Assembly: GCA_036873755.1 (NCBI GenBank)
Contig: JAVTVY010016045.1
Span: 1-64,000, forward strand
From: Hanleya hanleyi
Taxonomy: Eukaryota; Mollusca; Polyplacophora; Lepidopleurida; Hanleyidae
Direction: 5' to 3'
DNA length: 64,000 nucleotides
Below, piece by piece: positions 16,055 through 39,349 of the stretch. The notes under the pieces were generated by a model. It did not search any database, had not been told where the DNA came from, and worked only from the letters and a program-made list of their open reading frames with translations. The translations under genes were made by a program, and so were the position numbers. Numbering within the stretch: position 1 is the stretch's first letter; each line of letters starts with the position of its first letter.

Positions 16055-16068
16055 ACCACACGAAAAAA

Positions 16069-16886: not shown

Positions 16887-16919
16887 AACCAACATCAGCG
16901 GCAGGACAGCTCAGTCGCC

Positions 16920-17672
16920 ATGTTTTACCTCACCCTACCCAGTAACAGTTCGCTGGATGTGTTTCCTGACAACACCTTGGCCAAGTACGTCACCCAGTTA
17001 CCGCAACCGTTGCATTTACCTGGACGATGGGAATGTGGCCTCGTGGATATCCAATACCCTTACTCGTGGTACAACGTGCGAGCCAATGAAGTGTGGTACG
17101 AGGTGACCTACGAAGGAAAAGACACCCGACTCACCCTCCCCGAAGGCCAATACGATACTCCCAAGGAGTTCATGCAGGGGCTGACAAGACTGTTGCATTA
17201 TAAGGCTCTACGGGAGGTCACGAATGTTTCAAAACCCATCAAAACCTTTCCCTTCAAGAATCACGTGGACTTCGATTACAACGCACACAACGACAAGGCA
17301 CAGATCATCCTCACCGCCAACGTGAGTGTCGTACTGAGTCCTATCCTACAGCAAATGCTGGGTTTCGATCTACAGACGTTCGCTGGTCCCACCGCCCACC
17401 AAGGCCAGATCCCGATGGATATGAAGTCGGGTATGTACGGACTCTACGTCTACTCGGACGTGGTCGACAACCACATCGTAGGCGATATCAACACACCTAT
17501 GTTACGGGTGGTCCCCATTAAAAAGACGTATGGAGATCAAGTTACCCACAGTTTCACTCACATGCTCTACCTACCCGTACGACAAACCGACATCAACACT
17601 ATCATGGTGGATATGAGAGATGACACGGGAAAAGTGGTGCTGACACTTCATTTTCGACAAGCACGTGCATAA
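16920..17672 (+). CDS. Minor capsid (penton-like) protein (A)
   Basis: A 250-residue protein starting MFYLTLPSNSSLDVFPDN, with LPGRWECGLVDIQYPYSWYN and a C-terminal VVLTLHFRQ. This matches the Polinton PY/penton base family, a single jelly-roll protein occupying capsid vertices. It is 12 residues shorter than the C copy: a short in-frame deletion near the C-terminus (after DDTG) and a shorter tail. Its TAA overlaps the ATG of the next gene (TAATG). Confidence 0.85.
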   Translation: MFYLTLPSNSSLDVFPDNTLAKYVTQLPQPLHLPGRWECGLVDIQYPYSWYNVRANEVWYEVTYEGKDTRLTLPEGQYDTPKEFMQGLTRLLHYKALREVTNVSKPIKTFPFKNHVDFDYNAHNDKAQIILTANVSVVLSPILQQMLGFDLQTFAGPTAHQGQIPMDMKSGMYGLYVYSDVVDNHIVGDINTPMLRVVPIKKTYGDQVTHSFTHMLYLPVRQTDINTIMVDMRDDTGKVVLTLHFRQARA

Positions 17673-18076
17673 TGAAGATGCCTTACGAGTGCGATGCACG
17701 CAGCTATATGGACTATTATGCCCAACAGGCCGGAGGTGGCCTTCCGGTCTTTAGTGCTGCACGCATGCAACAAGAACATTGGCTGGGGAACATACTCGGG
17801 AGCATCGTCAAAACGTTCCTGCCCTTGGTGACGCGTGGGGTGAAAGCAATCGGCAAACAAGCGCTACGCAGTGGACTGCAAGTCGCCGGTGATGTCTTGG
17901 GGGGTACGGCACCCAAAGAAGCCTTGAAACGGCGGGCCAAAGAAGCAGGAGGCGTCTTGGTCACCAAAGCACAACGCACCGCAGGGAATAAAAGACCTGC
18001 ATCACCGAGACCACGCACCAGTCGACGACCGATCCAGCGACGATGCACATCGAAGACCCAGGATATCTTTTCTTAA
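17672..18076 (+). CDS. Basic virion protein with amphipathic segment (A)
   Basis: 134 residues, start overlapping the previous stop by one base. The N-terminus has YYAQQAGGGLPVF; residues ~30-75 (NILGSIVKTFLPLVTRGVKA...LQVAGDVLGG) form a long amphipathic/hydrophobic stretch; the tail is Arg-rich (RPRTSRRPIQRR). This arrangement recurs beside Polinton and adintovirus capsid genes and resembles in outline the DNA-binding and membrane-active minor proteins of adenoviruses. That comparison is by architecture, not sequence. Confidence 0.75.
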   Translation: MKMPYECDARSYMDYYAQQAGGGLPVFSAARMQQEHWLGNILGSIVKTFLPLVTRGVKAIGKQALRSGLQVAGDVLGGTAPKEALKRRAKEAGGVLVTKAQRTAGNKRPASPRPRTSRRPIQRRCTSKTQDIFS

Positions 18077-18078
18077 AC

Positions 18079-18203
18079 ATGTCCTTGATCCACGCAGAGT
18101 CCTGCCCCTCCACCAACAGTGAATTTGATTTGTGGACCGTCCCGCCCACACAGACCAGTGCCGAACAAGGATTATGGGTGGAGCATCTCCCGCTCTCCAG
18201 CAT
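18079..18203 (+). pseudogene. Major capsid protein, 5' stub (A)
   Basis: The gene begins MSLIHAESCPSTNSEF and stays in frame for about 41 codons, matching the start of the C capsid gene. At ~18203, after CTCCAGCATCA, the sequence changes directly to right-TIR module sequence (TGCGCAGAACG). An internal deletion therefore joined the gene to the middle of a TIR module, removing the rest of the capsid gene, the protease and anything beyond. Confidence 0.85.
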
Positions 18204-18897
18204 CATGCGCAGAACGTCGAACACGAACGACACACTAGTTCAGGCGGATGCTCCTTCACGAATGCTTCACACTGATACCTCACTCGACTCCATCGGACCA
18301 TTAGTGGCTCCCCTAGACCCCAAAACGTCTACGTCCATACCCTTTTCCCAAAATTCCCTGTCTGCGCATGCTCAGAATGTTGACAACGAACGATACACTA
18401 GCCCAGGTGGATGCTCCCTCACGACTGCTTCACATTGATACCTCATACGACTCCATCGGCCCATTAGTGGCCCACCTAGACCCCAAAACGTCTATTTCCA
18501 TACAGTTTCTCTACTGCGCATGCGCAGAATGACGTCAGTTCCACGTCACGCCCAGTCCGTTGGATACTCCATCACGTATGCTTTACATTGATACCTCACT
18601 CGACCCAATCGGTCCATTAGCGGTCCCTACAGATTGCCGAACATTCTCACGAAAACCCACGGTTTTGGGACTACTTTCGGTCCGCGGAGGCAGACCGCAT
18701 CACCGCCAGACCGCATCACCGCGGAGGAATCCATGCCCCCAAGGTCACGCCCTATTCATCCAGACCGGAAGTGACGTCATACACTTGCGCAGAACACTCC
18801 TGCGCACACCTCATAACCTCCTCATTTCTGCGCACACCACTTTCTCGCGCATGCGCACTGACACCAATACGCGTCGAAATGTGTATAACCTACTACT
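18203..18897. repeat. Element A right TIR
   Basis: The reverse complement begins AGTAGTAGGTTATACACATT and follows the left TIR for ~80 bp, then has a block with ETS-CRE composite CCGGAAGTGACGTCA (near 18764) and CCGCGGTGATGCGGTCTGG words (also in B and C). Next come two to three NRF1/CRE modules (TGCGCATGCGCAGAATGACG near 18515) matching left-TIR modules in different order. Confidence 0.85.
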
Positions 18898-19483: not shown

Positions 19484-19489
19484 TGTAAT
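19484..19489. repeat. Target site duplication of element B, left copy
   Basis: TGTAAT immediately precedes AGTAGTATATAAAACACGG and is repeated at 35142-35147 after the inverted terminus. Confidence 0.85.
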
Positions 19490-19846
19490 AGTAGTATATA
19501 AAACACGGTTAAAGTCACATTGACCTCATTAATTGTTCCCCGGGTAAAATTTGAGGCGGAACTTGATCACGTGGCGATCATGTGATCGTTGGGGAGGAAA
19601 ACTACCTTCAACACAGAAGAGTTCCAATCTAGGGGGGAGGTAACTCCGGGTCACTATAGTTCCGGCAAAGGGCCCCTGGGCATGTATTCTTCCGCGGTGA
19701 TGCGGTCTGGTGGTGATGCGGTCGCGGGAAAAAGCTTCCGCGGAGAAAAAGTAGTCCCCAGACTTCAAATACGCTGCATGGTCCGATTGGGTCGAGTGAG
19801 GTATCAAAGTGAAGCATTCGTGAAGGGGCATCCAGTCATGGGTGGG

Positions 19847-20230
19847 TGCATGTAAAATTAGGATTTTTTCCCGAAACTATAAAAAGCGGAACACGGACTT
19901 TACCCCTAAAATAGGGGAAAACACCTATCAACCCTAGCCAAAAGGGCTAATATCGGTCCCTGGGCTTATTGGGACCTGCCTATCAAGTCAATGGGGTGGG
20001 TGCATGTAAAATTAGGATTTTTTCCCGAAAATATAAAAAGCGGAATACGGACTTTACCCCTAAAATAGGGGAAAACCCCTATCAACCCTAGCCAAAAGGG
20101 CTAATAACGGTCCCCGGGCTTATCGGGGCCTGTCTATCAAGTCAATAGGGTGGGTGCATGTAAAATTAGGATTGTTTTCCGAAAATATAAAAAGCGGAAC
20201 TCGGGCTTCACCCCTACAATAGGGGTCTGT
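19847..20230. repeat. ~150-bp unit with three consecutive short hairpins, 3 copies
   Basis: Each unit has GGTGGGTGCATGTAAAATTA, a TATA-like CTATAAAAAGCGG, then CCCCTAAAATAGGGG, TAGCCAAAAGGGCTA and a GGTCCC...GGGACC palindrome. Three short inverted repeats follow one another within ~90 bp. Mirrored at ~34400-34795 in the right arm. Confidence 0.75.
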
Positions 20231-20289
20231 ATTATACAATATAAGAGAAAATGCCTGTATGGGGTATGGGGATGATCAATTTTTTTTCG

Positions 20290-21765
20290 TGGGCTTTGCT
20301 ATGGGTTGTGGAGTCTCGTTTTTCTCGTCTCGCCAAGAAAAACACGATGGGAGGGGTCCCGGAGCGAAGCGGTGAAATTTTTGGAAAAAGTCACCGAGGT
20401 CTGTATATAGGCCTATAGGCTGGCTATATGGGGGTATAGGTTCAACCTGGGAAATTCACACACGTTCATTGTGATATGGGTTGTTTGGTCTTGTTTTTCA
20501 CGTCTCGTCATTTAGAACACGATGGTAAGGGTCCTGCAGCGAATCGGTGAAATTTTTGGAAAAGTACCATATAGCTCCATATAAGCTCCATACTGGATAT
20601 ATGGGGGTATAGGTTCAGCCTGGGAAATTCACACACGTTCATTGTGATATGGCTTGTTTGGTTTTGTTTTTCACGTCTCGTCATTTAGAACACGATGGGA
20701 AGGGTCCCGGAGCGAAACGGTGAAATTTTTGAAAAGTACCGTGTAGGGCTGTATATAGGCCCATAGGCTGGCTATGGGGTATAGGTCCAGCCTGGGAAAT
20801 TGACACACGTTCATTGTGATATGGCTTGTTTGGTTTTGTTTTTCACGTCTCGTCATTTAGAACACGATGGGAAGGGTCCTGGAGCGAATCGGTGAAATTT
20901 TTGGGAAAAGTACCATATAGCCCCATATAAGCTCCATACTGGATATATGGGGGTATAGGTTCAGCCTGGGAAATTCACACACCTTCATTGTGATATGGGT
21001 TGTTTGGTCTTGTTTTTCACGTCTCGTCATTTAGAACACGATGGGAAGGGTCCCGGAGCGAAACGGTGAATTTTTTGGAAAAGTACCGGGTAGGGCTGTA
21101 TATAGGCCCATAGGCTGGCTATATGGGAGGATAGGTTCAGCCTGGGAAATTCACACACGTTCATTATGATATGGCTTGTTTGGTTTTGTTTTTCACGTCT
21201 CGTTATTTAGAACACGATGGGAAGGGTCCCGGAGCGAATCGGTGAAATTTTTGGGAAAAGTACCGGGTAGGCCTGTATATAGGCCTATAGGCTGGCTATA
21301 TGGGGGTATAGGTCCAGCCTGGGAAATTCACACACGTTCATTGTGATATGGGTTGCTTGGATTTGTTTTTCACGTCTAGTCATTTAGAACACGATGAGAA
21401 GGGTCTCGCAGCGAATCGGTGAAATTTTTGGAAAAGTACCATATAGCCCATATAGTCCCATACTGGCCTTTTCACGTCTCGTTATGTAGAACACGATGGG
21501 AAGGGTCCCGGAGCGAATCGGTGAAATTTTTGGGAAAAGTACCGGGTAGGCCTGTATATAGGCCTATAGGCTGGCTATATGGGGGTATAGGTCCAGCCTT
21601 GGAAATTCACACACGTTCATTGTGATATGGGCTGTTTGGATTTGTTTTTCACGTCTCGTCATTTAGAACACGATGGGAAGGGTCCTGGAGCGAAACGGTG
21701 AAATTTTTGGAAAAAGCTCACGGAGGTCTGGGTAGGCCCATAGGCCTATACTGCATGGCTATGGG
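20290..21765. repeat. ~175-bp tandem array, about 9 copies
   Basis: The unit contains CACGTCTCGTCATTTAGAAC, ACGATGGGAAGGGTCCCGGA, GCGAATCGGTGAAATTTTTG, TATAGGCCTATAGGCTGGCT and CACACACGTTCATTGTGATA. TATAGGCCTATA is a perfect palindrome. Mirrored at ~33330-34390. No coding capacity. Confidence 0.8.
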
Positions 21766-21779
21766 TGTATAGATCCATA

Positions 21780-22830
21780 CGGGGTGGACGTTTTGGAGTC
21801 TAGGTGAGTCCCTAATGGTCCTATGGTGTCGTATGAGGACTTATTTTGAAGCTCTCGTGGGAGAGCATCCGAGTTCGTCCGTGTTCAATAGTCTGTGCAT
21901 GCGCAGCCTGGCCGTAGTATAGAAAGCCGGCGTTTTGGGGGTATGTGGGGTGTGTTTGGGGTAGAGATGGACCACTATGGGTCCAAATGGGTCGTGGGAC
22001 GTGTTATCTTGTAGCTCTCGGGGTGTAGACCCCGATTTGAGGGCTCTCCGCGTCATCTGTGACGTCATCGGTGACGTCATCAGTACGAGTAGTAGCGAAA
22101 CTGGGCATTTTGGGGCAGTGAAGGAAGGTATTTGGTGTAGAGAGGGACCACTATGGGTCCAAATGGGTCGTGGGAGGTGTTATCTTGTAGCTCTCGGGGT
22201 GTAGACCCCGATTTGAGGGCTGTGCGCGTCATCTGTGACGTCATCGGTGACGTCATCAGTACGAGTAGTAGCGAAAGTGGGCATTTTGGGGCAGTGAAGG
22301 TAGGTATTTGGTGTAGAGAGGGACCATCCTTGGTCCGAATGCGTCCTGGGCGATGTCATTTTGTAGCTCTCGGGGTGTACATTCCGATTTGAGGGATATT
22401 CACGTCATCTGTTACGTCATTGGTGACGTCATCAGTAGGAGTAGTAGCGAAAGTGAGCATTTTGGGGCAGTGAAGGAAGGTATTTGGTCCGAATGCGTCG
22501 TGGCAGGTGCCATGTTGTAGCTCTCGGGGTGTAGACCCCGATTTGAGGGCTGTGCACGTCATCTGTGACGTCATGGGTGACATCATCAGTACGAGTAGTA
22601 GCGAAAGTGGGCATTTTGGGGGCAGTGAAGGAAAGTATTTGGGATAGAGATGGACCATCATTGGTCCGAATGTGTCGTGTGGGGTGTCATTTTGTAGCTC
22701 TCGGTGTGTAGACCCCGATTTGAGGGATGTTCACGTCATCTGTGACGTCATTGGAGGTATTTGGTGTAGACATGGACCATCCTTGGTCCGAATGCAGCGT
22801 GTGGGGTGTCATCTTGTAGTTCTCTGCATG
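21780..22830. repeat. CRE-rich TIR modules, about 6 copies
   Basis: Units of ~150-180 bp with GAGTAGTAGCGAAAGTGGGC, TTTTGGGGCAGTGAAGG, GGACCA...TGGTCC palindromes, TTGTAGCTCTCGGGGTGTAG and clustered TGACGTCA palindromes (for example near 22059 and 22237). The first unit carries the GCATGCGCAG site near 21898. Mirrored at ~32520-33320 and related to remnants at 46.7-49.5 kb. Confidence 0.8.
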
Positions 22831-22909
22831 TAGACGCAACTACACACTTGGTGGTCGCATCGTGCATGAATACTACATATGGCTTGATACTGTGAACTAT
22901 AACTGTAAA

Positions 22910-22995
22910 GTCAGGATGGCCGAGTGGTCTAAGGCGCCAGTCCTAAGTGCTGGTCTGCGCAACGCAGGGCGTGGGTTCGAATCCTACTCCTGACA
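22910..22995 (+). tRNA. tRNA-Leu-like gene, anticodon UAA by position
   Basis: A complete type II cloverleaf: acceptor GTCAGGA/TCCTGAC, D arm GCC...GGC with box A TGGCCGAGTGG, anticodon stem CCAGT/GCTGG, long variable arm TGCG-CAA-CGCA, T arm with box B GGTTCGAATCC, discriminator A. The loop CCTAAGT puts UAA at 34-36; position 33 is C rather than the near-universal U, which could impair decoding. A TTTTTT Pol III terminator follows 6 bp downstream. No intron. It lies inside the left arm of element B; the right arm has a mirrored copy. It resembles eukaryotic Leu tRNAs beginning GTCAGGATGGCCGAGTGGTC. Confidence 0.85.
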
Positions 22996-22996
22996 C

Positions 22997-23740
22997 ATGA
23001 GTTTTTTGTATATACACCTTTTGTATTATACCATATGTCCTGTATTGTACCATATTTGTCCTGTGTTATATCATATCTCTCCTGAATGTGCTGTATTATA
23101 CCATATCTCTCCTGTATTATACCAAATCTGTGCTGTATTATACCATATCTCTCCTGTATTGTACCATATATGTCCTGTATTATACAATATATGTTCTGTA
23201 TTATACAATATTTGCCCTCTATTATACCATATCTGTCCTGTATTATACCAAATCTGTGCTGTATTACACCATATCTGTGCTGTATTATACCATATCTGTG
23301 CAGTATTATACCATATCTGTCCAGTATTATACCGAATCTGTGCTGTATTATACCATATCTGTCCTGTATTGTACCATATTTGTCCTGTGTTATATCATAT
23401 CTCTCCTGAATGTGCGGTATTATACCATATCTCTCCTGTATTATACCAAATCTGTGCTGTATTATACCATATCTCTCCTGTATTGTACCATATATGACCT
23501 GTATTATACAATATATGTTCTGTATTATACAATATTTGCCCTCTATTATACCATATCTGTCCTGTATTATACCAAATCTGTGCTGTATTACACCATATCT
23601 GTGCTGTATTATACCATATCTGTGCAGTATTATACCATATCTGTCCAGTATTATACCGAATCTGTGCTGTATTATACCATATCTGTCCTGTATTATACCA
23701 TATCTGTCCTCTATTAGACAATATCTTCGCTGTATTTAAT
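22997..23740. repeat. 21-bp CTGTATTATACCATATCTGTC array
   Basis: About 34 copies with variants at the last few bases. Because 21 is divisible by 3, long frames stay open in several registers; none is a gene. The right arm has a shorter array (~32030-32340), so copy number changed after the arms formed. Confidence 0.9.
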
Positions 23741-23965
23741 GTACATGTACTCTGTGCATGTCCATGTATTCTGTACATATCCATGCACGTGTCTGTACAT
23801 GTACTATTTGCCTGTACATGTAATCTGTTCATGTACATGTACTCTGTCAATATACATGTTCTTTGTCCATGTAAATGTACTCTGTGCATGTCATTCTACA
23901 TGTACTCTGTTCACGTTCTTGTATACATACTCTGTTCAAATCCATGTACATACTCTTTGTCCCAT
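23740..23965. repeat. Loose CATGTACATGTACTCTGT repeats
   Basis: Degenerate TGTACATGT-rich repeats with unit ~18-24 bp. Mirrored at ~31790-32030. Confidence 0.65.
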
Positions 23966-24007
23966 CTCTATATAGCTGAAATATTGCGGAATGCGACGTT
24001 AAACCTT

Positions 24008-24056
<49 letters not shown>
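23966..24056 (+). mobile_element. SINE tail with CT microsatellite (left arm)
   Basis: ATATAGCTGAAATATTGCGG and GACGTTAAACC followed by ~40 bp of CT repeats. It has the same tail type as 12268 and lacks a head. The mirrored copy, with a longer tract, is at ~31684-31785. Confidence 0.7.
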
Positions 24057-24057
<1 letters not shown>

Positions 24058-24140
24058 CTCAATGAACATGTACTCTGTACAATGTCGCGTGATGTAGACC
24101 GGTGAGAGAACAACAACAACAAGAATGACAGGTCAATCAT

Positions 24141-24201
24141 TTTATTATCCCCTTCAGTACATCATACCCAAGCTGGGGGAGCCGCGTTGGGTATGTTTAC
24201 A
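24141..24201 (-). terminator. Conserved 3' UTR motif and poly(A) signal (left-arm zinc-finger gene)
   Basis: On the minus strand TACCCAACGCGGCTCCCCCA, GCTTGGGTATGATGT and GGGGATAATAAAATG, followed downstream by TTGTTGTTGTTGTTCTC. AATAAA is complementary to 24141-24146. Confidence 0.75.
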
Positions 24202-24407
24202 ATACCAATAGCTTCTTGTCCAATCAGAGGCCGCCATTTGGCGCTGCATCTGTCATATTCGTTCTTGTCCGTTAGATGTATTCTCGGCTACTCTTGTCCA
24301 ATCAGAAGTCGCCATTTCAGAAAGTTCCATCTTCGGCCATGTTCGCTCTGAACCGTTTGTTCTAATCGTCATCGGGCAGGCCAGGATACCGTTGAGGAAA
24401 CATATCC

Positions 24408-25382
24408 TCAGATAGTTGTTTGCGCATTCTGAGTATCTATCAGTGCATGGGTGAATACTTTCATCCGATGGGGGTGGTGGGTCAGTTTAACCACGAAGAA
24501 CGTAACATTGGTGACCCTCTCCACTATCCACTTGGTGTTGGGGCGCTGTTCATAGGCCCATTCCAAGGGATCCACAGTGTCCAGTTGGGCCAGCATCGTC
24601 TCTAGCGACGCCCGATTGGTGATTGTGAAAGGATGGTCGTACACTGGGTTGATGGCACTGGAATAGAAATAGCGCAATTCACCCGTCATCTTATGGCATA
24701 AGATGTACCCAAATGCTACATTTAATGTGAAGGACGTAGGTTGGTCATTGAAGATGGCTTTCACGTAGCTGCGTAGACGGGCGAGGCCAGTCAGTCGGAA
24801 AAAGTCCAATATAGGGCGATGACGGTGGAAACAGTGTCGGATCATGGACCAATGGCGTCGATACATCTCACTCACTGGATGATCTTCGGGTAAGAGATCG
24901 CTGGGAACATCCACCGCATCTTCCACAAAATGTTCGTTGTTGTCAGGCGTATGACTGGGAACAGTAATGCTAGGGACCGGCTGGATATCTAGGCTCTTCT
25001 GAACTGTGGGTATAGGCGGGCTCTCCGTGATCGCATCACCAGTGGCATTCGTCTCCCCAGGTTCATCTTCAGTGAGTCTGTCCCTCCTGGGTGCCTCTTT
25101 AGTGGAAAGTTGTCCCTCATGCCGTGGTGACGGACCATGAATCAAACGCTCATGCCGTTTTAACTGACTGGGTCGTTTGAAGAGTTGACCACATTCTTCG
25201 CATGGACGCTTGGGTGGCCCATGAATTGAACGTTCATGGCGCTGTAAATGATCCGGGCGCTGAAACGACAGTGTACACATATCGTACAGCTATACCGGGC
25301 GGTTCCGTCGTGCTTGGTAGCCTCATGGCGGCGCAAGTCGTGCAGACGAGTGAATGATTTCGAGCACGTAGTACAAGTGAAC
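24408..25382 (-). pseudogene. C2H2 zinc-finger / polymerase-N-module protein, frameshifted (B left arm)
   Basis: Mirror copy of 30357-31283. The start MFTCTTCSKSFTRL is at 25382 and a TATA box (TATAAAAGG) ~45 bp upstream. A 2-bp insertion (GTGTAC for GTAC) near 25280 breaks the frame between the first two fingers. Beyond it the frame is open through three-finger and linker regions to the module with LNVAFGYILCHK, NRASLETMLAQLDTV and QRPNTKWIVERVTN, ending KLTHHPHRMKV... at 24408. The 3' end here is longer than in the right-arm copy, which has lost one C at the same point. Confidence 0.75.
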
Positions 25383-25428
25383 ATCTTGGTGGTTGACAGA
25401 GTGTCTGATGAAACGGCCAGGCCGCTTC

Positions 25429-25570
25429 CCTTTTATAGCAAGCTAGCTGGTGATCTATTTTTAGCACAATCAGTTCAACTTGGACGTCAGCGACAAGAAC
25501 CCGGATGTAGGCGCGGACGTCAGCGAAAAGAACCCGGATGTAGGCGCGGACGTCGAGAACCCGGAAGTTA
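25429..25570 (-). promoter_or_regulatory. Promoter of the left-arm zinc-finger gene
   Basis: TATAAAAGG near 25429-25437 (minus) with three spaced GCGGACGTC(AG) words near 25487, 25519 and 25545, each next to ACCCGGATGTAGG. The same words precede the homologous gene in the right arm (30180-30260) and the divergent promoter of A. Confidence 0.65.
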
Positions 25571-25695
25571 GAGGGGAGGTGATCGGCCTATCGACCAATC
25601 AGAAGCCATCATTTCAGAAAGTTCAATCTTCGTTCAGTGTAACCTAAACAGCTTCAAGCAATCCATGATACTGAAGCTCGAAGCTCTTACTTCTC

Positions 25696-25985
25696 TCATT
25701 CAACACTGAGATCAATCTCCATCGGCTCTTCAATCCGCGGCGAATCGACCTCCATGGGTTCTTCTATTCTCAGATGCATTCCGATAGAAACTGAAATATC
25801 CGGTCTCGAGAGTGGCGAGCGTGATCCGTGTATGACATTTCGGTGAGGACTCAATTGACTGGGATGCTTAAAGGCTATATCACAATCCGCACATGTATGC
25901 ATGGGTACTTCGTGGCGTGCACGTGTGTGACAACGCAAACTGTCCAGGCGATGAAGCGCTTCGAGCAAGTTGTGCAAGAGAACAT
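25696..25985 (-). pseudogene. Small C2H2 zinc-finger protein, frameshifted (B left arm)
   Basis: Starts MFSCTTCSK and would carry two C2H2 fingers (one ending CHTRARHE, one HTCADCDIAFKHPSQL) and an acidic tail with repeated EEPMEVD/EIDL. One T is missing in the first finger (GCGCTTCATC here, GCGCTTTCATC in the right arm). The rest is open to the stop at 25696. TATA-like CTATAAGAG and repeated CCGGATGT(A/T) words lie upstream (26040-26150). Function unknown; a DNA-binding regulator is the default reading. Confidence 0.65.
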
Positions 25986-26219
25986 ATCGGCTGTGGATCT
26001 GGAAATGATGAATGCCGTAAAACTTTCGGCTCTTATAGGCCAACATGGGAGTACCCGGATGTTCTACAGTCAGGGATGTACAAGAACCCGGATGTACCCG
26101 GATGTAAAAGTCCCGGATGTAAAAGTGCCCGGATGTTCACGAATGTACTACCATCCCGGACTTCTATCAGGCCCAGGTCCAGAAGCTCTCATGTCCTGCA
26201 TGTGAATAGTCAGTCATAT

Positions 26220-26660
26220 TGTGTGTGCGTGTGCGTGCATGTGTATGTGTGTGTGTAAGCCTCTGTGTGTGTATGTGTGTGTGCTTGCGAGTGTCTTTAC
26301 GCGTGTGTGTGTGTGTGTGCGTGTGTGTATGAGTGTATTTGTATGTGTGTATGCGTCTCTGTGTATGTGTGTATGTGTGTATGTGTATGTGTGCGTGTGT
26401 GTATGCCTGCGTATGCGTGTATGCATGTGTATGTATGTCTCTTTGTGTATGTGTGTGTGCTGGTGAGTGTGTACGCGTGTGTGTATGCATGTGTGTATGC
26501 GTGCGTGTGTATATGCGTCTGTGTATGCGTGTGTGTGCTTGTGCGTGTGTGTATGCATGTGTGTATGCATGTGTGTGTATGCGTGTGTGTGGGTGTGTGT
26601 GTGTGTGCGTGTGTGTGTATGCAGCATGTCTGTGTATACGTCTGTGGATAGGTGTGTGCA
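26220..26660. repeat. Degenerate TG/GC microsatellite
   Basis: TGTGTGTATGCGTGTG-type repeats. It gives long spurious Cys/Val or His/Thr frames on both strands. The right arm carries shorter parts (28876-28945 and 29312-29525), and the inner arm borders lie here. Confidence 0.9.
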
Positions 26661-26743
26661 TGTCGCCGTGAGCCATGATACAGACAGATGAGAGGAACAC
26701 CAGGGTACCAGGAACTGACCTTTGACCCCTGCGCGCTAGCGAT

Positions 26744-26911
26744 ATTGACCTTTGACCTCAGAAATTTGCATATCACGTGACAGAGGTCAAAGGTCAATGA
26801 GTGCACTTGGAGCTCAGAGCTCCGAAGTGACATTTGCATATGACCTCTGTGCGGAAGTGACCTCACAGAGGTCATATGCAAATGTCACTTCCGAGCTCTG
26901 AGCTCCAAGTG
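26744..26911. promoter_or_regulatory. Central palindromes with octamer and DR1 nuclear-receptor sites
   Basis: Inverted repeat 1: ATTGACCTTTGACCTC (26744-26759) against GAGGTCAAAGGTCAAT (26783-26798), each a perfect DR1 (AGGTCAAAGGTCA), with ATTTGCATATCACGTGAC between them. Inverted repeat 2: 26804-26851 against 26864-26911, 47 of 48 bp paired around a 12-nt loop, carrying ATTTGCATATGACC (octamer) in each arm. It lies at the centre of element B, outside the duplicated arms. Protein binding is inferred from motif consensus only. Confidence 0.7.
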
Positions 26912-28868
26912 TCAACCGGGGACGCCTGCCACAACCCCCCTAAATGGGGACTTTGTTAATAAGGTACCAAGAGATAAATGAACCTCAGATTCCAATAAAG
27001 GCAATCATAGAGACGCCCACTGGACCTTTGGATCCATCAAATTCTGAAATTTGCCAAAAGTGTTCAAGCTAGTCAAAGTGGGGACGCACACATTTCACAC
27101 TCGCCGTGAAAGATGCTGCTAAAATGGGGACGCACTCCCGTCAAGTGTAGACTATCCAAATGGGGACAAATGTTTAAAACCAACCAAATGGGGACATCAT
27201 CAATAAATTTATTATTGCAAATGATATGTAGGCTAAATAGGGACATGTCAAGTGAACATATAACCAATTCTATCACACTTTGATGTTTTATTACTACATG
27301 TAACGTTGAACACGTTTCATGGACGTCGCTGGACGCAGCCAGTTTTCGTCTTTCGTTGACAATGACTCCGTACCGGGAACAGTAATTGTGGAAAACTTGA
27401 ACAGTTACGAGAAAGCCGTTAACTTGACATACTACAGCGTAGACAGGGGCTTAGCGATACTGGTATTCGGAAACAAACAAGGTGAATAATTTGCTTCACC
27501 GGAAGTGCGCGCGTCTGTCTTCAAATACGCGCGAGTGTTCCTTTCACGGCGAGCGTAGGAACTTAGCTGTTTTCTAAGCAAGCTCGGCAGGGATGGCATT
27601 TAGGTGTCTCATTTAGGTGTCTAGGATTAAAGACCCTAAAACGAGGGAATATTCGATGCCGCCGTTTACGTGGAATGTTCCCAGATGAAGTAAGAATGGA
27701 CTGTGCAAAGAAGGTAGGGATTCGTTTACTAATTGAAGAACAATACCCAGTCGACTAAAATTGCGCGCCAAAATACGCAAGTGAACTGACATCTCTGCAA
27801 CTGCATCTCGGTTGTTGTTTCACCCGATTTGTGGATACTAGGCTGAAGTTTCTGGTACAGGTCATCAATTTTGATTGAGGGAATATATATATGTGTTTGG
27901 AATTGACAGTAAGAATGCATTCGCATTGTTGCAGAGAGGCATACAATTTCCGCCCCAAATTAGCATGCTGTTTGAAGTATGTTGATGTACACGACGAAAT
28001 CAGTATTGAGCGACATATATTCAGTGCCCAGATAGAGCGGGACTCAAATAGAATACAATAGACGTTCAACCGTTTAACTTTTTTGCAATTGTTTGAACAA
28101 CGGCACATAACGATGAAAGTTCACACTCGATCTAAGGCGCTCGCAATCTTGACAAATTAAACTTTCCGGAAAATGCTTCCACTCCGTATTTGTAGTATAT
28201 ACCACATCACAATACAGCGAAATAATACCTTTGGCGGACGTCATGGAAAGGCCGTGATATAGTACCAACAATATCTAGTTGTCGTTGTTGTTTTCCGTCT
28301 ACCACTTTATCGAATGACAACGTTAAAGTATCAACAACTGAGTAATAAACTATTCCTCAAGGAAGATTGTTGTTGTTGTTGTCTTCTGGCATTTTCTTCT
28401 GATTTGCAGGAACATGGGGACAAACAAAATATCTGACTAGGTACGGTACGCCTATTGTTTCGTTTTCGGTTTATGTCCATCAAACAAGTGTTTCAAAGTA
28501 AATCAGAAAATTCAACTTACGTTCCGTACAATATTGCCCGCAGTCGAATCGTGTATTGTTCTTTCTTCAGTCTCGTTTTATCTCTCTTCGTTCGTTGTCA
28601 CCGTGACTAACTAATTCATGCGCAAACGGGGACCTGTGTGTATTGAGCAGATTTTTTCTCTACGGGGCGGGAAACACACGCATACACCTCGCGCTTGAAT
28701 TTTGCTGCCTAAATGTGGACGTATACCGTATTTACCTCATTTCACTAGAGAGTTCCAAAAACAGGCTTGGCTGCACGTTTCAAGCCTTAAGTCAAACGGG
28801 GACGTCCCCGTTTGGAGGGGGGTCCCCATTTGAAAGGTGTGTATTCATGTCAATGTCCCCATTTGACA
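26907..28868. mobile_element. TIR element with many AAATGGGGAC motifs
   Basis: The left end AGTGTCAACCGGGGACG and the right end GTCCCCATTTGACAC are inverse matches (GTGTCAAnnGGGGAC). Inside, AAATGGGGAC or close variants occur at least ten times in both orientations, densest near the ends (26940-27250, 28790-28865). Such subterminal repeats are typical transposase-binding sites of large DNA-transposon families. No transposase frame is seen, so it is non-autonomous. The rest of the interior is anonymous and AT-rich. Confidence 0.55.
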
Positions 28869-28950
28869 CCTTTCACAAACGCACAAGCACACACACGCAT
28901 ACACAGACGCATATACACACGCACGCATACACACACATGCCCACATACGT

Positions 28951-29306
28951 TCCTTATTAGGTATGTCGATATAATTGTGCAACATTGTAGCGATCGTGGT
29001 GCAACATTGTAGCGATCGTCAACACTGTTTGCAACAATGTTTTTTGTTGTTGACGAACGCTCTTGTCGTAACAATGTTGCACAATAACATCGTCAAAAAA
29101 GACACTTTTTTAATCAAAAACTGTTTTAGAAACATCGTTTCTTATAGAAGAAACTTCTTTAAAAACATCGTTACTTATAGGCAATTTGCAATTTTAAAAT
29201 GACATTCTTAGTTGGAGCTCTATTATTTCAAAAGATTTTCTCCTTATTAGGTCTCCAAAAAGTACTTGATAGGGAATAGATTGCACGTTAAAGTACCTGA
29301 TAAGGA
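28951..29306. mobile_element. MITE in the right arm
   Basis: The TIRs TCCTTATTAGGTA and TACCTGATAAGGA match at 12 of 13 positions. The interior has CAACATTGTAGCGATCGT repeats that can pair with GTCGTAACAATGTTGC, and AACATCGTTTCTTATAGAAG words. Left-arm sequence is continuous where it sits, so it inserted after arm duplication. The interior is related to the MITE at 37145-37489. Confidence 0.65.
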
Positions 29307-29599
29307 TACATTCGTGTACGCACATGCATACACACACGCGTACACACTCGCAAGCACACACACATACACAAAGAGACATACATACACATGCATACACGCA
29401 TACGCAGGCATACACACACGCACACATACACATACACACACACACAGAGACGCATACACACATACACATAGACTCATACACACACGCACACACACACACA
29501 CACATGCACGCACACGCACACACAATATGACTGACTATTCACATGCAGGACATGAGAGCTTCTGGACCTGGGCCTGATAGAAGTCCGGGATGGTAGTAC

Positions 29600-29758
29600 A
29601 TTCGTGAACATCCGGGCACTTTTACATCCGGGACTTTTACATCCGGGTACATCCGGGTTCTTGTACATCCCTGACTGTAGAACATCCGGGTACTCCTATG
29701 TTGGCCTATAAGAGCCGAAAGTTTTACGGCATTCATCATTTCCAGATCCACAGCCGAT
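29600..29758 (+). promoter_or_regulatory. Promoter of the right-arm small zinc-finger gene
   Basis: Five ACATCCGGG words between 29605 and 29690, then TATA-like CTATAAGAGCCG near 29705, 50 bp before the ATG. Confidence 0.55.
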
Positions 29759-30045
29759 ATGTTCTCTTGCACAACTTGCTCGAAGCGCTTTCATCGCCTG
29801 GACAGTTTGCGTTGTCACACACGTGCACGCCACGAAGTACCCATGCATACATGTGCGGATTGTGATATAGCCTTTAAGCATCCCAGTCGAGTCGTCACCG
29901 AAATGTCATACACGGATCACGCTCGCCACTCTCGAGACCGGATATTTCAGTTTCTATCGGAATGCATCTGAGAATAGAAGAACCCATGGAGGTCGATTCG
30001 CCGCAGATTGAAAAGCCGATGGAAATTGATCTCAGTATTGAATGA
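29759..30045 (+). pseudogene. Small C2H2 zinc-finger protein, frameshifted (B right arm)
   Basis: Mirror of 25696-25985. The first finger is intact (MFSCTTCSKRFHRLDSLRCH) and the second begins HTCADCDIAFKHPS. A 4-nt deletion in the second finger near 29888 then breaks the frame, which the left arm does not have. The acidic tail (EEPMEVD, EKPMEID) is visible in the other frame up to 30045. The two arm copies thus carry different lesions. Confidence 0.65.
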
Positions 30046-30169
30046 GAGAAGTAAGAGCTTCGAGCTTCAGTATCATGGATTGCCCGAAGACGTTTAGGTT
30101 ACACTGAACGAAGATTGAACTTTCTGAAATGATGGCTTCTGATTGGTCGATAGGCCGATCACCTCCCCT

Positions 30170-30310
30170 CTAACTTCCGGGTTCTCGACGTCCGCGCCTA
30201 CATCCGGGTTCTTTTCGCTGACGTCCGCGCCTACATCCGGGTTCTTGTCGCTGACGTCCAAGTTGAACTGATTGTGCTAAAAATAGATCACCAGCTAGCT
30301 TGCTATAAAA
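30170..30310 (+). promoter_or_regulatory. Promoter of the right-arm zinc-finger gene
   Basis: Three GACGTCCGCG/GACGTCC words alternating with CTACATCCGGGTTCT, then CTATAAAAGGG near 30303, about 50 bp before the ATG at 30357. Confidence 0.65.
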
Positions 30311-30356
30311 GGGAAGCGGCCTGGCCGTTTCATCAGACACTCTGCCAACCACCAAG

Positions 30357-31283
30357 ATGTTCACTTGTACTACGTGCTCGAAATCATTCACTCGTCTGCA
30401 CGACTTGCGCCGCCATGAGGCTACCAAGCACGACGGAACCGCCCGGTATAGCTGTACGATATGTACACTGTCGTTTCAGCGCCCGGATCATTTACAGCGC
30501 CATGAACGTTCAATTCATGGGCCACCCAAGCGTCCATGCGAAGAATGTGGTCAACTCTTCAAACGACCCAGTCAGTTAAGACGGCATGAGCGTTTGATTC
30601 ATGGTCCGTCACCACGGCATGAGGGACAACTTTCCACTAAAGCGGCACCCAGGAGGGACAGACTCACTGAAGATGAACCCGGGGAGACGAATGCCACTGG
30701 TGATGCGATCACGGAGAGCCCGCCTATACCCACAGTTCAGAAGAGCCTAGATATCCAGCCGGTCCCTAGCATTACTGTTCCCAGTCATACGCCTGACAAC
30801 AACGAACATTTTCTGGAAGATGCGGTGGATGTTCCCAGCGATCTCTTACCCGAAGATCATCCAGTGAGTGAGATGTATCGACGCCATTGGTCCATGATCC
30901 GACACTGTTTCCACCGTCATCGCCCTATATTGGACTTGTACAATTTCCGACTGACTGGCCTCGCCCGTCTACGCAGCTACGTGAAATCCATCTTCAAAGA
31001 CCAACCTACGTCCTTCACATTAAATGTAGCATTTGGGTACATCTTATGCCATAAGATGACGGGTGAATTGCGCTATTTCTATTCCAGTGCCATCAACCCA
31101 GTGTACGACCATCCTTTCACAATCACCAATCGGGCGTCGCTAGAGACGATGCTGGCCCAACTGAACACTGTGGATCCCTTGGAATGGGCCTATGAACAGC
31201 GCCCCAACACCAAGTGGATAGTGGAGAGGGTCACCAATGTTACGTTCTTCGTGGTTAAACTGACCACCACCCCCATCGGATGA
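30357..31283 (+). CDS. C2H2 zinc-finger protein with Polinton polymerase N-terminal-like module (B right arm)
   Basis: 308 codons, open. Three C2H2 fingers occupy residues ~3-85 (FTCTTCSKSF, YSCTICTLSF and RPCEECGQLF, each with H-x3-5-H). A hydrophilic linker (ESPPIPTVQKSLDIQPVPS) follows. Residues ~175-305 hold MYRRHWSMIRHCF, LYNFRLTGLARLRSYVKS, LNVAFGYILCHKMTGELRYF, NRASLETML and QRPNTKWIVERVTNVTFFVV. I recall this module as the segment before the catalytic polymerase B domain in animal Polintons; here the gene stops just after it (LTTTPIG), one C shorter than the left-arm copy. It has its own TATA box and poly(A) signal, so it is an expressed-type gene rather than a random fragment. Likely DNA-binding; function unproven. 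Confidence 0.8.
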   Translation: MFTCTTCSKSFTRLHDLRRHEATKHDGTARYSCTICTLSFQRPDHLQRHERSIHGPPKRPCEECGQLFKRPSQLRRHERLIHGPSPRHEGQLSTKAAPRRDRLTEDEPGETNATGDAITESPPIPTVQKSLDIQPVPSITVPSHTPDNNEHFLEDAVDVPSDLLPEDHPVSEMYRRHWSMIRHCFHRHRPILDLYNFRLTGLARLRSYVKSIFKDQPTSFTLNVAFGYILCHKMTGELRYFYSSAINPVYDHPFTITNRASLETMLAQLNTVDPLEWAYEQRPNTKWIVERVTNVTFFVVKLTTTPIG

Positions 31284-31542
31284 AAGTATTCACCCATGCA
31301 CTGATAGATACTCAGAATGCGCAAACAACTATCTGAGGATATGTTGCCTCAACGGTATCCTGGCCTGCCCGATGACGATTAGAACAAACGGTTCAGAGCG
31401 AACATGGCCGAAGATGGAACTTTCTGAAAAGGCGACTTCTGATTGGACAAGAGTAGCCGAGAATACATCTAACGGACAAGAACGAATATGACAGATGCAG
31501 CACCAAATGGCGGCCTCTGATTGGACAAGAAGCTATTGGTAT

Positions 31543-31640
31543 TGTAAACATACCCAACGCGGCTCCCCCAGCTTGGGTATGATGTACTGAAGGGGATAAT
31601 AAAATGATTGACCTGTCATTCTTGTTGTTGTTGTTCTCTC
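31543..31640 (+). terminator. Conserved 3' UTR motif and poly(A) signal (right-arm zinc-finger gene)
   Basis: GTAAACATACCCAACGCGG, CTCCCCCAGCTTGGGTATGA and GGGGATAATAAAATG (AATAAA 31598-31603), followed by a TTGTTGTTGTTGTTCTC downstream element. Confidence 0.75.
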
Positions 31641-31680
31641 ACCGGTCTACATCATGCGACATTGTACAGAGTACATGCTC

Positions 31681-31683
<3 letters not shown>

Positions 31684-31744
<61 letters not shown>

Positions 31745-31785
31745 AAGGTTTAACGTCGCATTCCGCAATATTTCAGCTATATAGC
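31684..31785 (-). mobile_element. SINE tail with GA microsatellite (right arm)
   Basis: Mirror of 23966-24056; about 57 bp of GA repeats, then GGTTTAACGTCGCATTCCGC and AATATTTCAGCTATATAG. Confidence 0.7.
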
Positions 31786-32029
31786 GATGGGACAACGAGT
31801 ATGTACATGGATTTGAACAGAGTATGTATACAAGAACGTGAACAGAGTACATGTAGAATGACATGCACAGAGTACATTTACATGGACAAGGAACATGTAT
31901 ATTGATAGAGTACATGTACATGAACAGATTACATGTACAGGCAAATAGTACATGTACAGACACATAGTACATGTGCATGGATATGTGCAGAATACATGGA
32001 CATGCACAGAGTACATGTACATTAAATAC

Positions 32030-32345
32030 AGCGAAGATATTGTCTAATACAGGACAGATATGGTATAATACAGGACAGATATGGTATAATACAGCACAGA
32101 TTCGGTATAATACTGGACAGATATGGTATAATACTGCACAGATATGGTATAATACAGCACAGATATGGTGTAATACAGCACAGATTTGGTATAATACAGG
32201 ACAGATATGGTACAATACAGGAGAGATATGGTATAATACAGCACAGATTTGGTATAATACAGCACATTCAGGAGAGATATGATATAACACAGGACAAATA
32301 TGGTACAATACAGGACAGATATGGTATAATACAAAAGGTGTATAT
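32030..32345. repeat. 21-bp array, right-arm copy
   Basis: About 14 copies of the GGACAGATATGGTATAATACA type, against ~34 in the left arm. Confidence 0.85.
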
Positions 32346-32359
32346 ACAAAAAACTCATG

Positions 32360-32445
32360 TGTCAGGAGTAGGATTCGAACCCACGCCCTACGTTGCGCAG
32401 ACCAGCACTTAGGACTGGCGCCTTAGACCACTCGGCCATCCTGAC
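32360..32445 (-). tRNA. tRNA-Leu-like gene, second copy
   Basis: Reverse complement of the gene at 22910 with one difference in the variable arm (CGCAACGTA for CGCAACGCA). All stems, box A, box B and the T6 terminator are preserved. Keeping both copies intact while neighbouring protein genes decay is notable, though gene conversion between arms could explain it. Confidence 0.85.
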
Positions 32446-35141
32446 TTTACAGTTATAGTTCACAGTATCAAGCCATATGTAGTATTCATGCACGATGCGA
32501 CCACCAAGTGTGTAGTTGCGTCTACATGCAGAGAACTACAAGATGACACCCCACACGCTGCATTCGGACCAAGGATGGTCCATGTCTACACCAAATACCT
32601 TCCTTCACTGCCCCAAAATGCCCACTTTGGCTACTACTCCTAGTGATGACGTCACCAATGACGTCACAGATGACGTGAACATCCCTCAAATCGGGGTCTA
32701 CACACCGAGAGTTACAAAATGACACCCCACACGACACATTCGGACCAATGATGGTCCATCTCTACCCCAAATACTTTCCTTCACTGCCCCCAAAATGCCC
32801 ACTTTCGCTACTACTCGTACTGATGATGTCACCCATGACGTCACAGATGACGTGCACAGCCCTCAAATCGGGGTCTACACCCCGAGAGCTACAACATGAC
32901 ACCTCCCACGATGCATTCGGACCAAGGATGGTCCATCTCTACACCAAATACCTTCCTTCACTGCCCCAAAATGCTCACTTTCGCTACTACTCCTACTGAT
33001 GACGTCACCAATGACGCGGACAGCCCTCAAATCGGGGTCTACACCCCGAGAGCTACAAGATAACACCTCCCACGACCCATTTGGACCCATAGTGGTCCAT
33101 CTCTACCCCAAACACACCCCACATACCCCCAAAACGCCGGCTTTCTATACTACGGCCAGACTGCGCATGCGCAGACTATTGAACACGGACGAACCATTAG
33201 TCTACTCGGATGCTCCCCCACGAGAGCTTCAAAATAAGACCTCATACGACACCATAGGACCATTAGGGACTCACCTAGACCCCAAAACGTCCACCCCGTA
33301 TGGACCTATACGCCCATAGCCATGCAGTATAGGCCTATGGGCCTACCCAAACCTCCGTGAGCTTTTTCCAAAAATTTCACCGTTTCGCTCCAGGACCCTT
33401 CCCATCGTGTTCTAAATGACGAGACGTCAAAAACAAATCCATACAGCCCATATCACAATGAACGTGTGTGAATTTCCAAGGTTGAACCTATACCCCCATA
33501 TATAGCCAGTATGGGTTATATGGGCTATATGGTACTTTTCCAAAAATTTCACCGATTCGCTCCGAGACCCTTCCCATCGTGTTCTAAATGACTAGACGTG
33601 AAAAACAAATCCAAGCAACCCATATCACAATGAACGTGTGTGAATTTCCCAGGCTGGACCTATACCCCCATATAGCGAGCCTATAGGCCTATATACAGGC
33701 CTATCCGGTACTTTTTCCAAAAATTTCACCGATTCGCTCCGGGACCCTTCCCATCGTGTTCTAAATGACGAGACGTGAAAAACAAAACCAAACAAGCCAT
33801 ATCACAATGAACGTGTGTGAATTTCCCAGGCTGAACCTATCCTTCCATATAGCCAGCCTATGGGCCTATATACAGCCCATCCCGGTACTTTTCCAAAAAT
33901 TTCACCGTTTCGCTCCGGGACCCTTCCCATCGTGTTCTAAATGACGAGACGTGAAAAACAAGACCAAACAACCCATATCACAATGAAGGTGTGTGAATTT
34001 CCCAGGCTGAACCTATACCCCCATATATCCAGTATGGAGCTTATATGGGATTATATGGTACTTTTCCAAAAATTTCACCGATTCGCTCCAGGACCCTTCC
34101 CATCGTGTTCTAAATGACGAGACGTGAAAAACAAGACCAAACAACCCATATCACAATGAACGTGTGTGAATTTCGCAGGTTGGACCTATACCCCCATATA
34201 GCCAGCCTATAGGCCTATATACAGACCTCGGTGACTTTTTCCAAAAATTTCACCGCTTCGCTCCGGGACCCCTCCCATCGTGTTTTTCTTGGCGAGACGA
34301 GAAAAACGAGACCCCACAACCCATAGCAAAGCCCACGAAAAAAAATTGATCATCCCCATACCCCATACAGGCATGTTCTCTTATATTGTATAATACAGAC
34401 CCCTATTGTAGGGGTAAAGTACGAGTTCCGCTTTTTATATTTTCGGAAAACAATCCTAATTTTACATGCACCCACCCTATTGACTTGATAGACAGGCCCC
34501 GATAAGCCCGGGGACCGTTATTAGCCCTTTTGGCTAGGGTTGATAGGGGTTTTCCCCTATTTTAGGGGTAAAGTCCGTATTCCGCTTTTTATATTTTCGG
34601 GAAAAAATCCTAATTTTACATGCACCCACCCCATTGAATTGATAGGCAGGTCCCAATAAGCCCGGGGACCGATATTAGCCCTTTTGGCTAGGGTTGATAG
34701 GTGTTTTCCCCTATTTTATTTTAGGGGTAAAGTCCGTGTTCCGCTTTTTATAGTTTCGGGAAAAAATCCTAATTTTACATACACCCACCCATGACTGGAT
34801 GCCCCTTCACGAATGCTTCACTTTGATACCTCACTCGACCCAATCGGACCATGCAGCGTATTTGAAGTCTGGGGACTACTTTTTCTCCGCGGAAGCTTTT
34901 TCCCGCGACCGCATCACCACCAGACCGCATCACCGCGGAAGAATACATGCCCAGGGGCCCTTTGCCGGAACTATAGTGACCCGGAGTTACCTCCCCCCCT
35001 AGATTGGAACTCTTCTGTGTTGAAGGTAGTTTTCCTCCCCAACGATCACATGATCGCCACGTGATCAAGTTCCGCCTCAAATTTTACCCGGGGAACAATT
35101 AATGAGGTCAATGTGACTTTAACCGTGTTTTATATACTACT

Positions 35142-35147
35142 TGTAAT
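35142..35147. repeat. Target site duplication of element B, right copy
   Basis: TGTAAT directly follows TATATACTACT and equals 19484-19489. Confidence 0.85.
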
Positions 35148-37489: not shown

Positions 37490-39349
37490 CACTCTATTAC
37501 TCTGTCACAGTATGCACACTGCCCATTAGTCTGTCATAGTATGCACACTGTCTATTAGTGTGTCATAGTATGCACACTGTCCATTATTAGTCTTTTATAT
37601 AGTAGCCGCACTCTCCATTAGTCTGTCATAGTAGTCACACTCTCCATTAGTTTGTCCAAGTAGGCACACTTGTCATAGTCCGTCATAGTATGTACACACT
37701 CCATTAGTCTCATGGCATGCACACTCTCCAGTATTCTGTCAATATATGCACGCTCTCCATTACTCTGTCATAGTATGCACACTCTCCATTACTCTGTCAC
37801 AGTATGCACACTCTCCATTACTCTGTCACAGTATGCACACTCTCCATTACTCTGTCACAGTGTGCACTCTCCATTAGTCTGTCATGGTAGCCACACTCTC
37901 CATTAGTCTGCCCTAGTAGCCACACTTGTCCTAGTCTATCACAGTATGCACACACTCCATTAGTCTCATAGAATGCACAATCTCCATAATACTGTCATAG
38001 TATGCACATTTTCCATTAGACTATCATAGTATGCACACTCTCCATTAGTCTGTCATATTCGGAGCACTCCTAATTAGTGTGTCATAGTATGCACACTTTC
38101 CATTAGTCTGACATATCATGCACACTCTTCATTAGTCAGTCACAGTATGTACTCTCTCCATTAAGTCTGCCACAGTATGCACACTCTCCATTAGTGTCAT
38201 AATATACACATTATCCATTAGTCTGTCATACTGTGCACATTAACTTTTAGTCTATCATAGTATGTACACTCTCGGTCTGTCGTGGTCGTCACACTCTCCA
38301 TTAGTCTCATGGTATGCCCACTCTCGATTAGTCTGTCATAGTATGTACACACTCCAGTAGGCTGTCACAGAATGCACACTGTCCGTTACTCCGTCATAGT
38401 ATATACATCCTCCAGTATTCTGTCACTCTGTCATAGTATGCATACTGTCCATTAGTCTGTCATAGTATGCACTCTCTCCATTTATAATAGTCTGTCATAG
38501 TATGTACACACTCCATTAGTCTGTCATAGAATGCACACGCTACGTCAGTCTGTCTTAGAATGTACACTCTCCATTAGTCTATCAAAGTATGAACACTCCA
38601 TTAGCATTAGTCTGTCATAGTATGCACACTCTCCATTAGTCTGTCACAGTACGCACACTCCATAGGTCTGTCACAGTATGCACACTCTACATTAGTCTGT
38701 CATAGTATGCACACTCCATTAGTCTGTCACAGTATGACACAAAACATTAGTCTGTCATAGTATGTACACTCTCCATTAGTCTGACATAGTATGTACACTC
38801 TCCATTAGTCTGTCATATTGCGCACGCTCTCAATTAGTATGTCATAGTATTCACTCTTCATTGGTCTGTCATAATATTAAACAATCTCCATTATCTTGTC
38901 ATAGTATGTACATACTTCATTAGGCTGTCAAAGAATGCACACTCCATTAGTCGGTCATATTATTTACACTATAAGTCTGTCATAGTATGTACACACTTCA
39001 TTAGTCTGTCAAATTATGTACACACTCCATTAGTCTGTCATAGAATGCACACTCTACATTAGTCTGTCTTAGAATGTACACTCTCCATTAGTCTATCATA
39101 GTATGCACACTCCATTAGTCGGTCACATCATGCACACTCTTTATTAGTCTGTCATAGTATGCACTCTCTCTTAGTCTGTCATAGTATGTACACTCTCTAT
39201 TAGTCTGTCATAGTATGCACACTCTACATTGATCTGCCACAGTATACACACTTCATTACCCTGTCATAGAATGCACACTCTTGAATAGTCTACCATAGCA
39301 TGCACACTTCACTAGTTTGTCATAGTATGCACAATCTTCATCAATCTGT

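Follow-up and report, generated by a model that had tools for sequence, protein, structure and literature searches.

The 64,000-nucleotide stretch of the polyplacophoran mollusc Hanleya hanleyi analysed here (contig JAVTVY010016045.1, positions 1 to 64,000; hereafter, the window) contains, at 19490–35141, a 15,652-bp unit that has Polinton-type ends (AGTAGT//ACTACT), is flanked by an exact 6-bp duplication (TGTAAT) and consists almost wholly of an inverted repeat. The unit represents a family that is real, large and Polinton-derived but not a full Polinton, and that works like a foldback element; its larger members probably have a primer-protein gene. On balance, we favour the explanation that this is a recently mobile, non-autonomous family of Polinton (Maverick) derivatives, in which a giant inverted repeat surrounds a central hairpin, some members carry a primer gene, the enzymes would be supplied in trans and replication would proceed by snap-back.

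The palindromic unit of the window

The target-site duplications (TSDs) of the unit are located in direct orientation at 19484–19489 and 35142–35147, and AGTAGTATATAAAACACGGTTAAAGTCACATTGACC is read at both termini. A first-pass annotation, made from the sequence alone, had proposed that this Polinton-type stretch moved as one unit, and the ends and the exact TSD on both sides agree with this. The arms are collinear and inverted, with 96.4% substitution identity over 5680 aligned columns and 190 gap columns. The TSDs and the divergence of the arms in both sequence and indels uphold the proposal that the palindrome is not a reflection created by assembly. Each end begins with a 30-bp tip composed of AGTAGTA and a hypervariable stretch; the left tip (19490–19519, plus strand) and the right tip (35112–35141, minus strand) have the same 30 bp. 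The tips are followed by a conserved terminal body of about 310 bp (19520–19829, plus strand; 34802–35111, minus strand), corresponding to positions 31–340 of the ends, which is near-invariant over 28 ends (median end branch 0.0066).

Probes from Polinton B of the window (described below) gave no match for integrase, ATPase, capsid or protease inside 19490–35141; within the window, these genes are present only in Polintons A and B. The polymerase probe P0001, which comprises the terminal-protein (TP) domain, the following region and an exonuclease part, yielded TP-part matches only, at 8688–9095, 24471–24959 and 30780–31280 of the window. Since only the TP part was matched, the unit is a derivative and not a full Polinton. 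The earlier claim that all core genes are missing holds for integrase, ATPase, capsid and protease, but it has to be amended in that a zinc-finger gene of the unit matches the N-terminal part of a polymerase.

The family in the genome

Searches covered 2.48 Gb in 52,793 contigs, among which the window belongs to contig C14706. A 291-bp end query gave 40 matches, with scoring limited to 40 of 2545 first-look candidates, and 20 stretches were then retrieved for reading. The exact pattern AGTAGT-N(22–26)-TTGACCTCATTAATTGTTCCCC occurs 216 times in the genome (111 + 105, allelic contigs included), and the reversed control occurs 0 times. This excludes the case, named by the first-pass annotation, that no other copy with the same ends exists.

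Nine two-ended elements were read, namely, the window element, C18308, C28221, C12723, C46996, C18050, C18411, C16339 and C6937. All nine have inverted arms; in the seven elements read in one piece, the palindromic fraction is 0.74–0.97 and the arm identity is 91–98%. The length of arm contained varies from element to element. The C6937 palindrome (L019, 1631–9665) seemingly lies inside a Polinton integrase gene, with residues 281–314 on the left and 304–361 at the right edge.

The TSDs were assessed for 28 end pairs, nine from the retrieved elements and 19 from 39 short flank stretches, where the ends alone were read and not the arms. A 6-bp duplication is present in 26 of the 28 pairs (21 exact, five with one mismatch); a match of at least 5/6 was found in 26/28 true pairs vs 20/812 mismatched pairings. 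The two failures, C2731 and C17797, are the pairs with tips differing at 12 of 24 positions, so that neither is likely to be a single element. The flanks and element of C5756 recur in C8497, and the two are apparently allelic contigs of a single insertion; with these counted as one, 25 distinct insertions are obtained among the tested pairs, in line with the large non-autonomous class that had been suggested. C7887 was paired as 344127/357548, as the nearer end at 350263 fails (2/6); in this region (344127–357548), the element end and flank recur as an inverted internal copy, by rearrangement or an assembly fold. The end pair at C19292:19628–43510 spans 23.9 kb and has the TSD CATATC and three tip mismatches. 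C7140 (L018 and L021), considered as a full parental Polinton, was rejected: its tips differ and its flanks have no duplication. It is a chimera of the left half of a palindrome and a Polinton core whose right end is of another kind.

Hypervariable tips matched within elements

Positions 8–30 differ between two-ended elements at a mean of 9.3 of 23 sites; within an element there are 0 or 1 differences in all nine cases. A single common tip is present in C18411 and C28221. Among 100 listed ends, from which the tip analysis was drawn, 78 distinct tips were found in the 99 of equal length. Convergent pairs closer than 20 kb number 23; of these, 20 have 0–3 tip mismatches, one has a 1-bp length difference and two have 12 mismatches. 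For the 22 pairs of equal length, the mean mismatch is 2.05/24 within elements, both 12-mismatch pairs included, vs 10.78 between elements, and none of 10,000 shuffles gave a within-element value as low.

Within the tip, normalised mutual information is 0.35 at a distance of 1 bp and drops to 0.05–0.08 at 12 bp and beyond; between tip positions 7–10 and 25–30, 29 two-by-two allele tables are complete. Both figures are given without a computed null. The pattern may reflect a swapping of short stretches between tips. An organisation of the tip as triplets in frame with AGTAGT is weak (mean mutual information 0.36 within vs 0.27 across triplets) and is not claimed. A Polinton-like end of a different type, L021:9153, has AGCCGTGATTT in common with the palindromes C46996 and C18471. 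The terminal body contains too little variation for a tree of sister arms: five of nine pairs formed one group, with only C28221 well supported.

The palindrome centre

The symmetry axis of the window element is a near-perfect hairpin of about 51 bp centred at 26857 (feature at 26803–26910), and the DNA fold of 26775–26915 has a z-score of −15. It shares short stretches with the centres of other copies, without their 21-nt loop. This loop, TAACAATACCGGATAAAAATT, was detected with 0–1 errors in L001, L003, L004, L007, L016, L018 and L019, in both orientations, and it is central in five of the nine two-ended elements. The L018 stem comprises 56 bp with zero mismatches; the central fold of L007 is weak (z −2.6).

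The apparent central spacer of 2.3–2.8 kb consists mostly of a 1,957-bp stretch (26911–28867) beside the hairpin. Because it has transposon-like ends GTCAAnnGGGGAC, and because 1,725 bp of it are 97% identical to a stretch inside another palindrome, C12723, it is probably an inserted transposon outside the original element. The first-pass description of the unit as almost entirely inverted repeat is confirmed, with the correction that the centre is a hairpin with a probable insertion and not a true spacer. A stretch resembling a miniature inverted-repeat transposable element, with the ends TCCTTATTAGG / CCTGATAAGGA, is located at 28951–29306. The palindrome centres contain motifs that resemble CACGTG, an octamer and GGTCAAAGGTCA. 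Since the genes of the window element point outward from its centre, the centre may also serve as a divergent promoter.

A zinc-finger gene with a terminal-protein domain

The main zinc-finger gene of the unit encodes C2H2 fingers and the TP domain of a Polinton polymerase (hereafter, ZF-TP). In the right arm it is open (30357–31283, plus strand; 308 aa) and ends in PIG followed by the stop codon, with TATAAAAG at 30304 and AATAAA at 31598. The left-arm copy (24471–25384, minus strand) is frame-broken near 25277–25280. A short second zinc-finger gene is located at 25699–25986 (minus strand), where its start looks frame-shifted, and at 29758–30045 (plus strand), where it has two internal stops. 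Thus, two zinc-finger genes are indeed found in both arms, as the first-pass annotation had claimed, but the main gene forms a single open frame in the right arm only.

According to PMC11071308, the N-terminus of the Polinton polymerase consists of TP followed by vOTU. ZF-TP matches polymerase N-termini, and those polymerases continue into the following region; in ZF-TP, the protease-like region and the polymerase that normally come next are absent, and a stop stands right behind the TP domain in seven of the ten gene copies read. A D1 domain is characterised by a four-stranded sheet, two helices and an LF/PAD-like fold. In the D1 domains examined in PMC11071308, the linking residue is Ser or Tyr, in a loop between helix 2 and the last strand and close to Gly or Pro; other TPs are known to use Thr. 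The AlphaFold model of ZF-TP (pLDDT 81) contains a helix at 135–142, a loop with Thr146 and a final strand at 148–167, that is, the order published for the linking-residue loop. Thr146 is invariant in 10 of 10 rows, and Pro144 is present in at least 90%; the published D1 domains instead name Ser or Tyr.

Six viral models were listed at a probability of at least 0.9, namely, an adintovirus C2H2 protein, a MELD-virus polymerase and polymerase or structural proteins labelled as densovirus/parvovirus; one of them had E < 0.001. Among the 50 VIA rows, 47 were Y-family polymerases, and in nearly all of these the alignment covered the little-finger part, which is the published TP relative. None of 34 pattern matches in viral contigs was confirmed as a TP-domain relative. 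From sequence comparison and the structural model, ZF-TP is probably a replication-priming protein. In a side observation, P0003 (Patiria miniata) seemingly has two tandem copies of a TP-like domain.

ZF-TP is present in two of the nine two-ended elements (the window element and C18308) and in six single-end loci; its presence in every element is not upheld. The ratio of nonsynonymous to synonymous substitution rates (dN/dS) between the right-arm gene of the window and unbroken copies of other subfamilies was 0.29 (L017) and 0.30 (L001, left arm); it was 0.30–0.35 against other diverged copies and 0.26 against the partial L013. Values of 0.41–0.54 were obtained between less diverged subfamilies (L009 or L018 vs L017, L001 and L016) and of 0.55–1.1 among close copies (1.07 for L017 with the left arm of L001). 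The two arms of the window differ by one synonymous and 12 nonsynonymous changes in 270 codons. Matches shorter than 80 residues were excluded, as was any second match in L001 and L013; stop codons were skipped (one each in L020, L009 and L018) and some rows were joined from pieces. As the ratio is about 0.3 between the right arm of the window and other subfamilies and about 1 between close copies, these values, given without a significance test, suggest that ZF-TP is under purifying selection while lineages are mobile and decays after insertion. A simple rule by which the fingers read the tip was rejected: L017, L016 and the left arm of L001 have near-identical ZF-TP (dS 0.04–0.05) and different tips.

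Other features of the window

Satellites and a tRNA gene are located in both arms, as initially annotated. Tandem repeats of 154 bp occupy 19840–20225 in the left arm (this and the following left-arm repeats on the plus strand) and 34400–34790 in the right arm; repeats of 173 bp, 20300–21714 and 33364–34325; repeats of 176 bp with AGTAGTAGCGAAA in their units, 21955–22754 and 32520–33112; and a 21-bp array, 23022–23736 and 32025–32333. At 22088–22700, the 176-bp units hold AGTAGTAGCGAAA...ATTTTGG, which resembles a Polinton tip, and related repeats occur at 46.8–49.4 kb. Genes for tRNA-Leu (UAA) are found at 22910–22996 (plus strand) and 32359–32445 (minus strand). This tRNA was found in none of 21 other loci scanned, only in the window copy, and its role as a functional part of the family is not upheld. 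Outside the unit, a long array of a 29-bp satellite extends over 37492–44447.

Polinton A (7275–18897) has the TSD AACGTC and the same AGTAGTA tip plan as the palindrome. It encodes ZF-TP (8658–9670, two frames), X/Y, integrase, ATPase, minor capsid and px-like proteins, the integrase being split by a stretch bearing a reverse transcriptase (about 12.1–13.8 kb). No protease match was found in Polinton A, the polymerase match is limited to the TP part, and the capsid match is short and covers the gene start only. Polinton B (54900–62800) contains frames for X, Y, an integrase (rve + chromo), an A32-like ATPase, both the minor and the major capsid protein and a protease; ZF-TP was not matched in its portion within the window, past which the element may extend.

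Possible mode of propagation

According to the favoured explanation, ZF-TP would prime, or help to recruit priming to, the AGTAGT ends, with the polymerase and integrase of full Polintons supplied in trans; elements lacking ZF-TP would borrow the primer as well. A displaced single strand would fold back at the central hairpin, whereby a duplex origin would be rebuilt from the element alone. A strand that stopped early would be finished by copying its own other arm, which would make both tips alike and preserve the palindrome; in this way, snap-back replication perhaps keeps the elements palindromic. The product would be inserted by Polinton integrase, which is assumed to act in trans because of the ends and the 6-bp TSD. 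We infer that the family has been mobile recently.

The matched tips and the common central hairpin favour the replication-derived foldback form that the first-pass annotation had put forward, which is plausible but unproven. That annotation had not recognised the family, its hypervariable tips, the central hairpin or the TP domain of the zinc-finger gene. Two observations weigh against this explanation. Seven of the nine two-ended elements contain no ZF-TP, so that there the protein must act in trans or be unneeded. In addition, and against the strict form, only 64 of 116 arm tiles had their best match in the other arm of their own element (19/23 in the window, 4/21 in C12723), a score that was lowered by competition from eight other elements, 11 further loci and the tandem repeats. 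Arm histories are mixed, and the idea that arms are always freshly copied is not upheld. A rather unlikely variant is a self-palindromic Polinton parasite whose larger members would have their own primer and which would use snap-back with a borrowed polymerase, its tips being shuffled by template switching as exchangeable recognition tags.

Among the alternatives, the most serious is an expansion of terminal inverted repeats (TIRs) as in Foldback or Galileo, which is possible though distinctly less probable than snap-back replication. Here, gene conversion and unequal exchange would have lengthened the TIRs until they met, Polinton integrase would act in trans and no hairpin replication would be involved. 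The unequal numbers of internal tandem repeats in the arms and the best matches of arms lying partly in other elements, as in Galileo, are consistent with it. PMC3573991 describes Galileo TIR extension by recruitment of internal sequence and mentions Polinton inverted-repeat expansion as reported. By itself, however, expansion predicts neither a common central hairpin nor hypervariable end-matched tips beside a near-invariant 310 bp.

An alternative concerns the role of ZF-TP alone and is compatible with the rest of the favoured explanation: having originated from the N-terminal part of the polymerase, the protein would bind DNA as a regulator or would interfere, and would not be a primer. The lack of the polymerase and post-TP region points in this direction, as do the fingers, which suggest DNA binding, the presence of ZF-TP in Polinton A together with the absence of polymerase matches past TP in the window, and the absence of the gene from most palindromes read. 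Nevertheless, the TP domain is conserved between ZF-TP and full polymerases, down to the invariant Thr of the predicted linking loop, and we consider this role doubtful.

It is improbable that the palindromes arose one by one as defective genomes of full Polintons, each by a fresh foldback of one end in the manner of defective protein-primed linear plasmids: the arm lengths do differ between elements, but the centre common to five two-ended elements and the common arm lineages indicate an inherited palindrome. An assembly artefact in the form of a reflected contig can be dismissed almost entirely, since TSDs are present in 26/28 pairs, the arms have diverged and C5756 and C8497 show the same flanks and element, even though long palindromes are hard to assemble and C7887 holds an end and flank in inverted copy.

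Comparison with known systems

Literature searches gave no match for a Polinton with a zinc finger and a terminal protein, with subscription papers mostly outside coverage. Among the matches listed for Polinton palindromes, none concerned such an element by title, and for non-autonomous, miniature or derived Polintons/Mavericks, matches were obtained by 'Polinton-derived' alone. The combination of foldback, Maverick, TIR and non-autonomous gave few matches, including PMC6431247.

Polintons/Mavericks, including adintoviruses, resemble the palindromes in their (AGT)2//(ACT)2 ends, 6-bp TSD, inverted ends and polymerase TP domain; for vertebrate Mavericks, such ends and TSD are given in PMC8097293. 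In contrast, the window element has no integrase, polymerase, ATPase, capsid or protease match, and the palindrome arms reach 7–8 kb vs 46–1447 bp for vertebrate Maverick TIRs, according to PMC8097293.

Foldback-type elements (Drosophila Foldback, Galileo 2TIR and Tetris) are similar in that their TIRs are long and contain tandem repeats, a unique centre is small or absent and they are non-autonomous. The palindrome family differs from them in its Polinton ends, 6-bp TSD (vs 9 bp in Foldback and 7 bp in Galileo), arm gene in some copies, hypervariable matched tips and common central hairpin in five of nine elements. If the reading is correct, it would show that a mobile family of giant palindromes is able to endure in a eukaryotic genome of large size.

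Palindromic forms of protein-primed linear replicons are also said to exist, namely, a hairpin deletion derivative of the kalilo linear plasmid and a symmetric recombinant of adenovirus 12; unlike the palindromes described here, these are not integrating families. None of the papers listed in a search concerned the adenovirus case. The jumping-back study of adenovirus is cited in PMC8097293. If the reading is correct, the some two hundred ends with variable, end-matched tips would be a natural record of protein-primed end copying, repair and exchange.

In PRD1 and adenovirus, the stand-alone terminal proteins are encoded apart from the polymerase (PMC11071308). ZF-TP is likewise separate from a polymerase, but it differs in its fusion to C2H2 fingers and in that the element encoding it has no polymerase. 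If its priming role is correct, these elements would be non-autonomous Polintons with a priming module apart from the polymerase, a relation known from the terminal proteins of adenovirus and PRD1.

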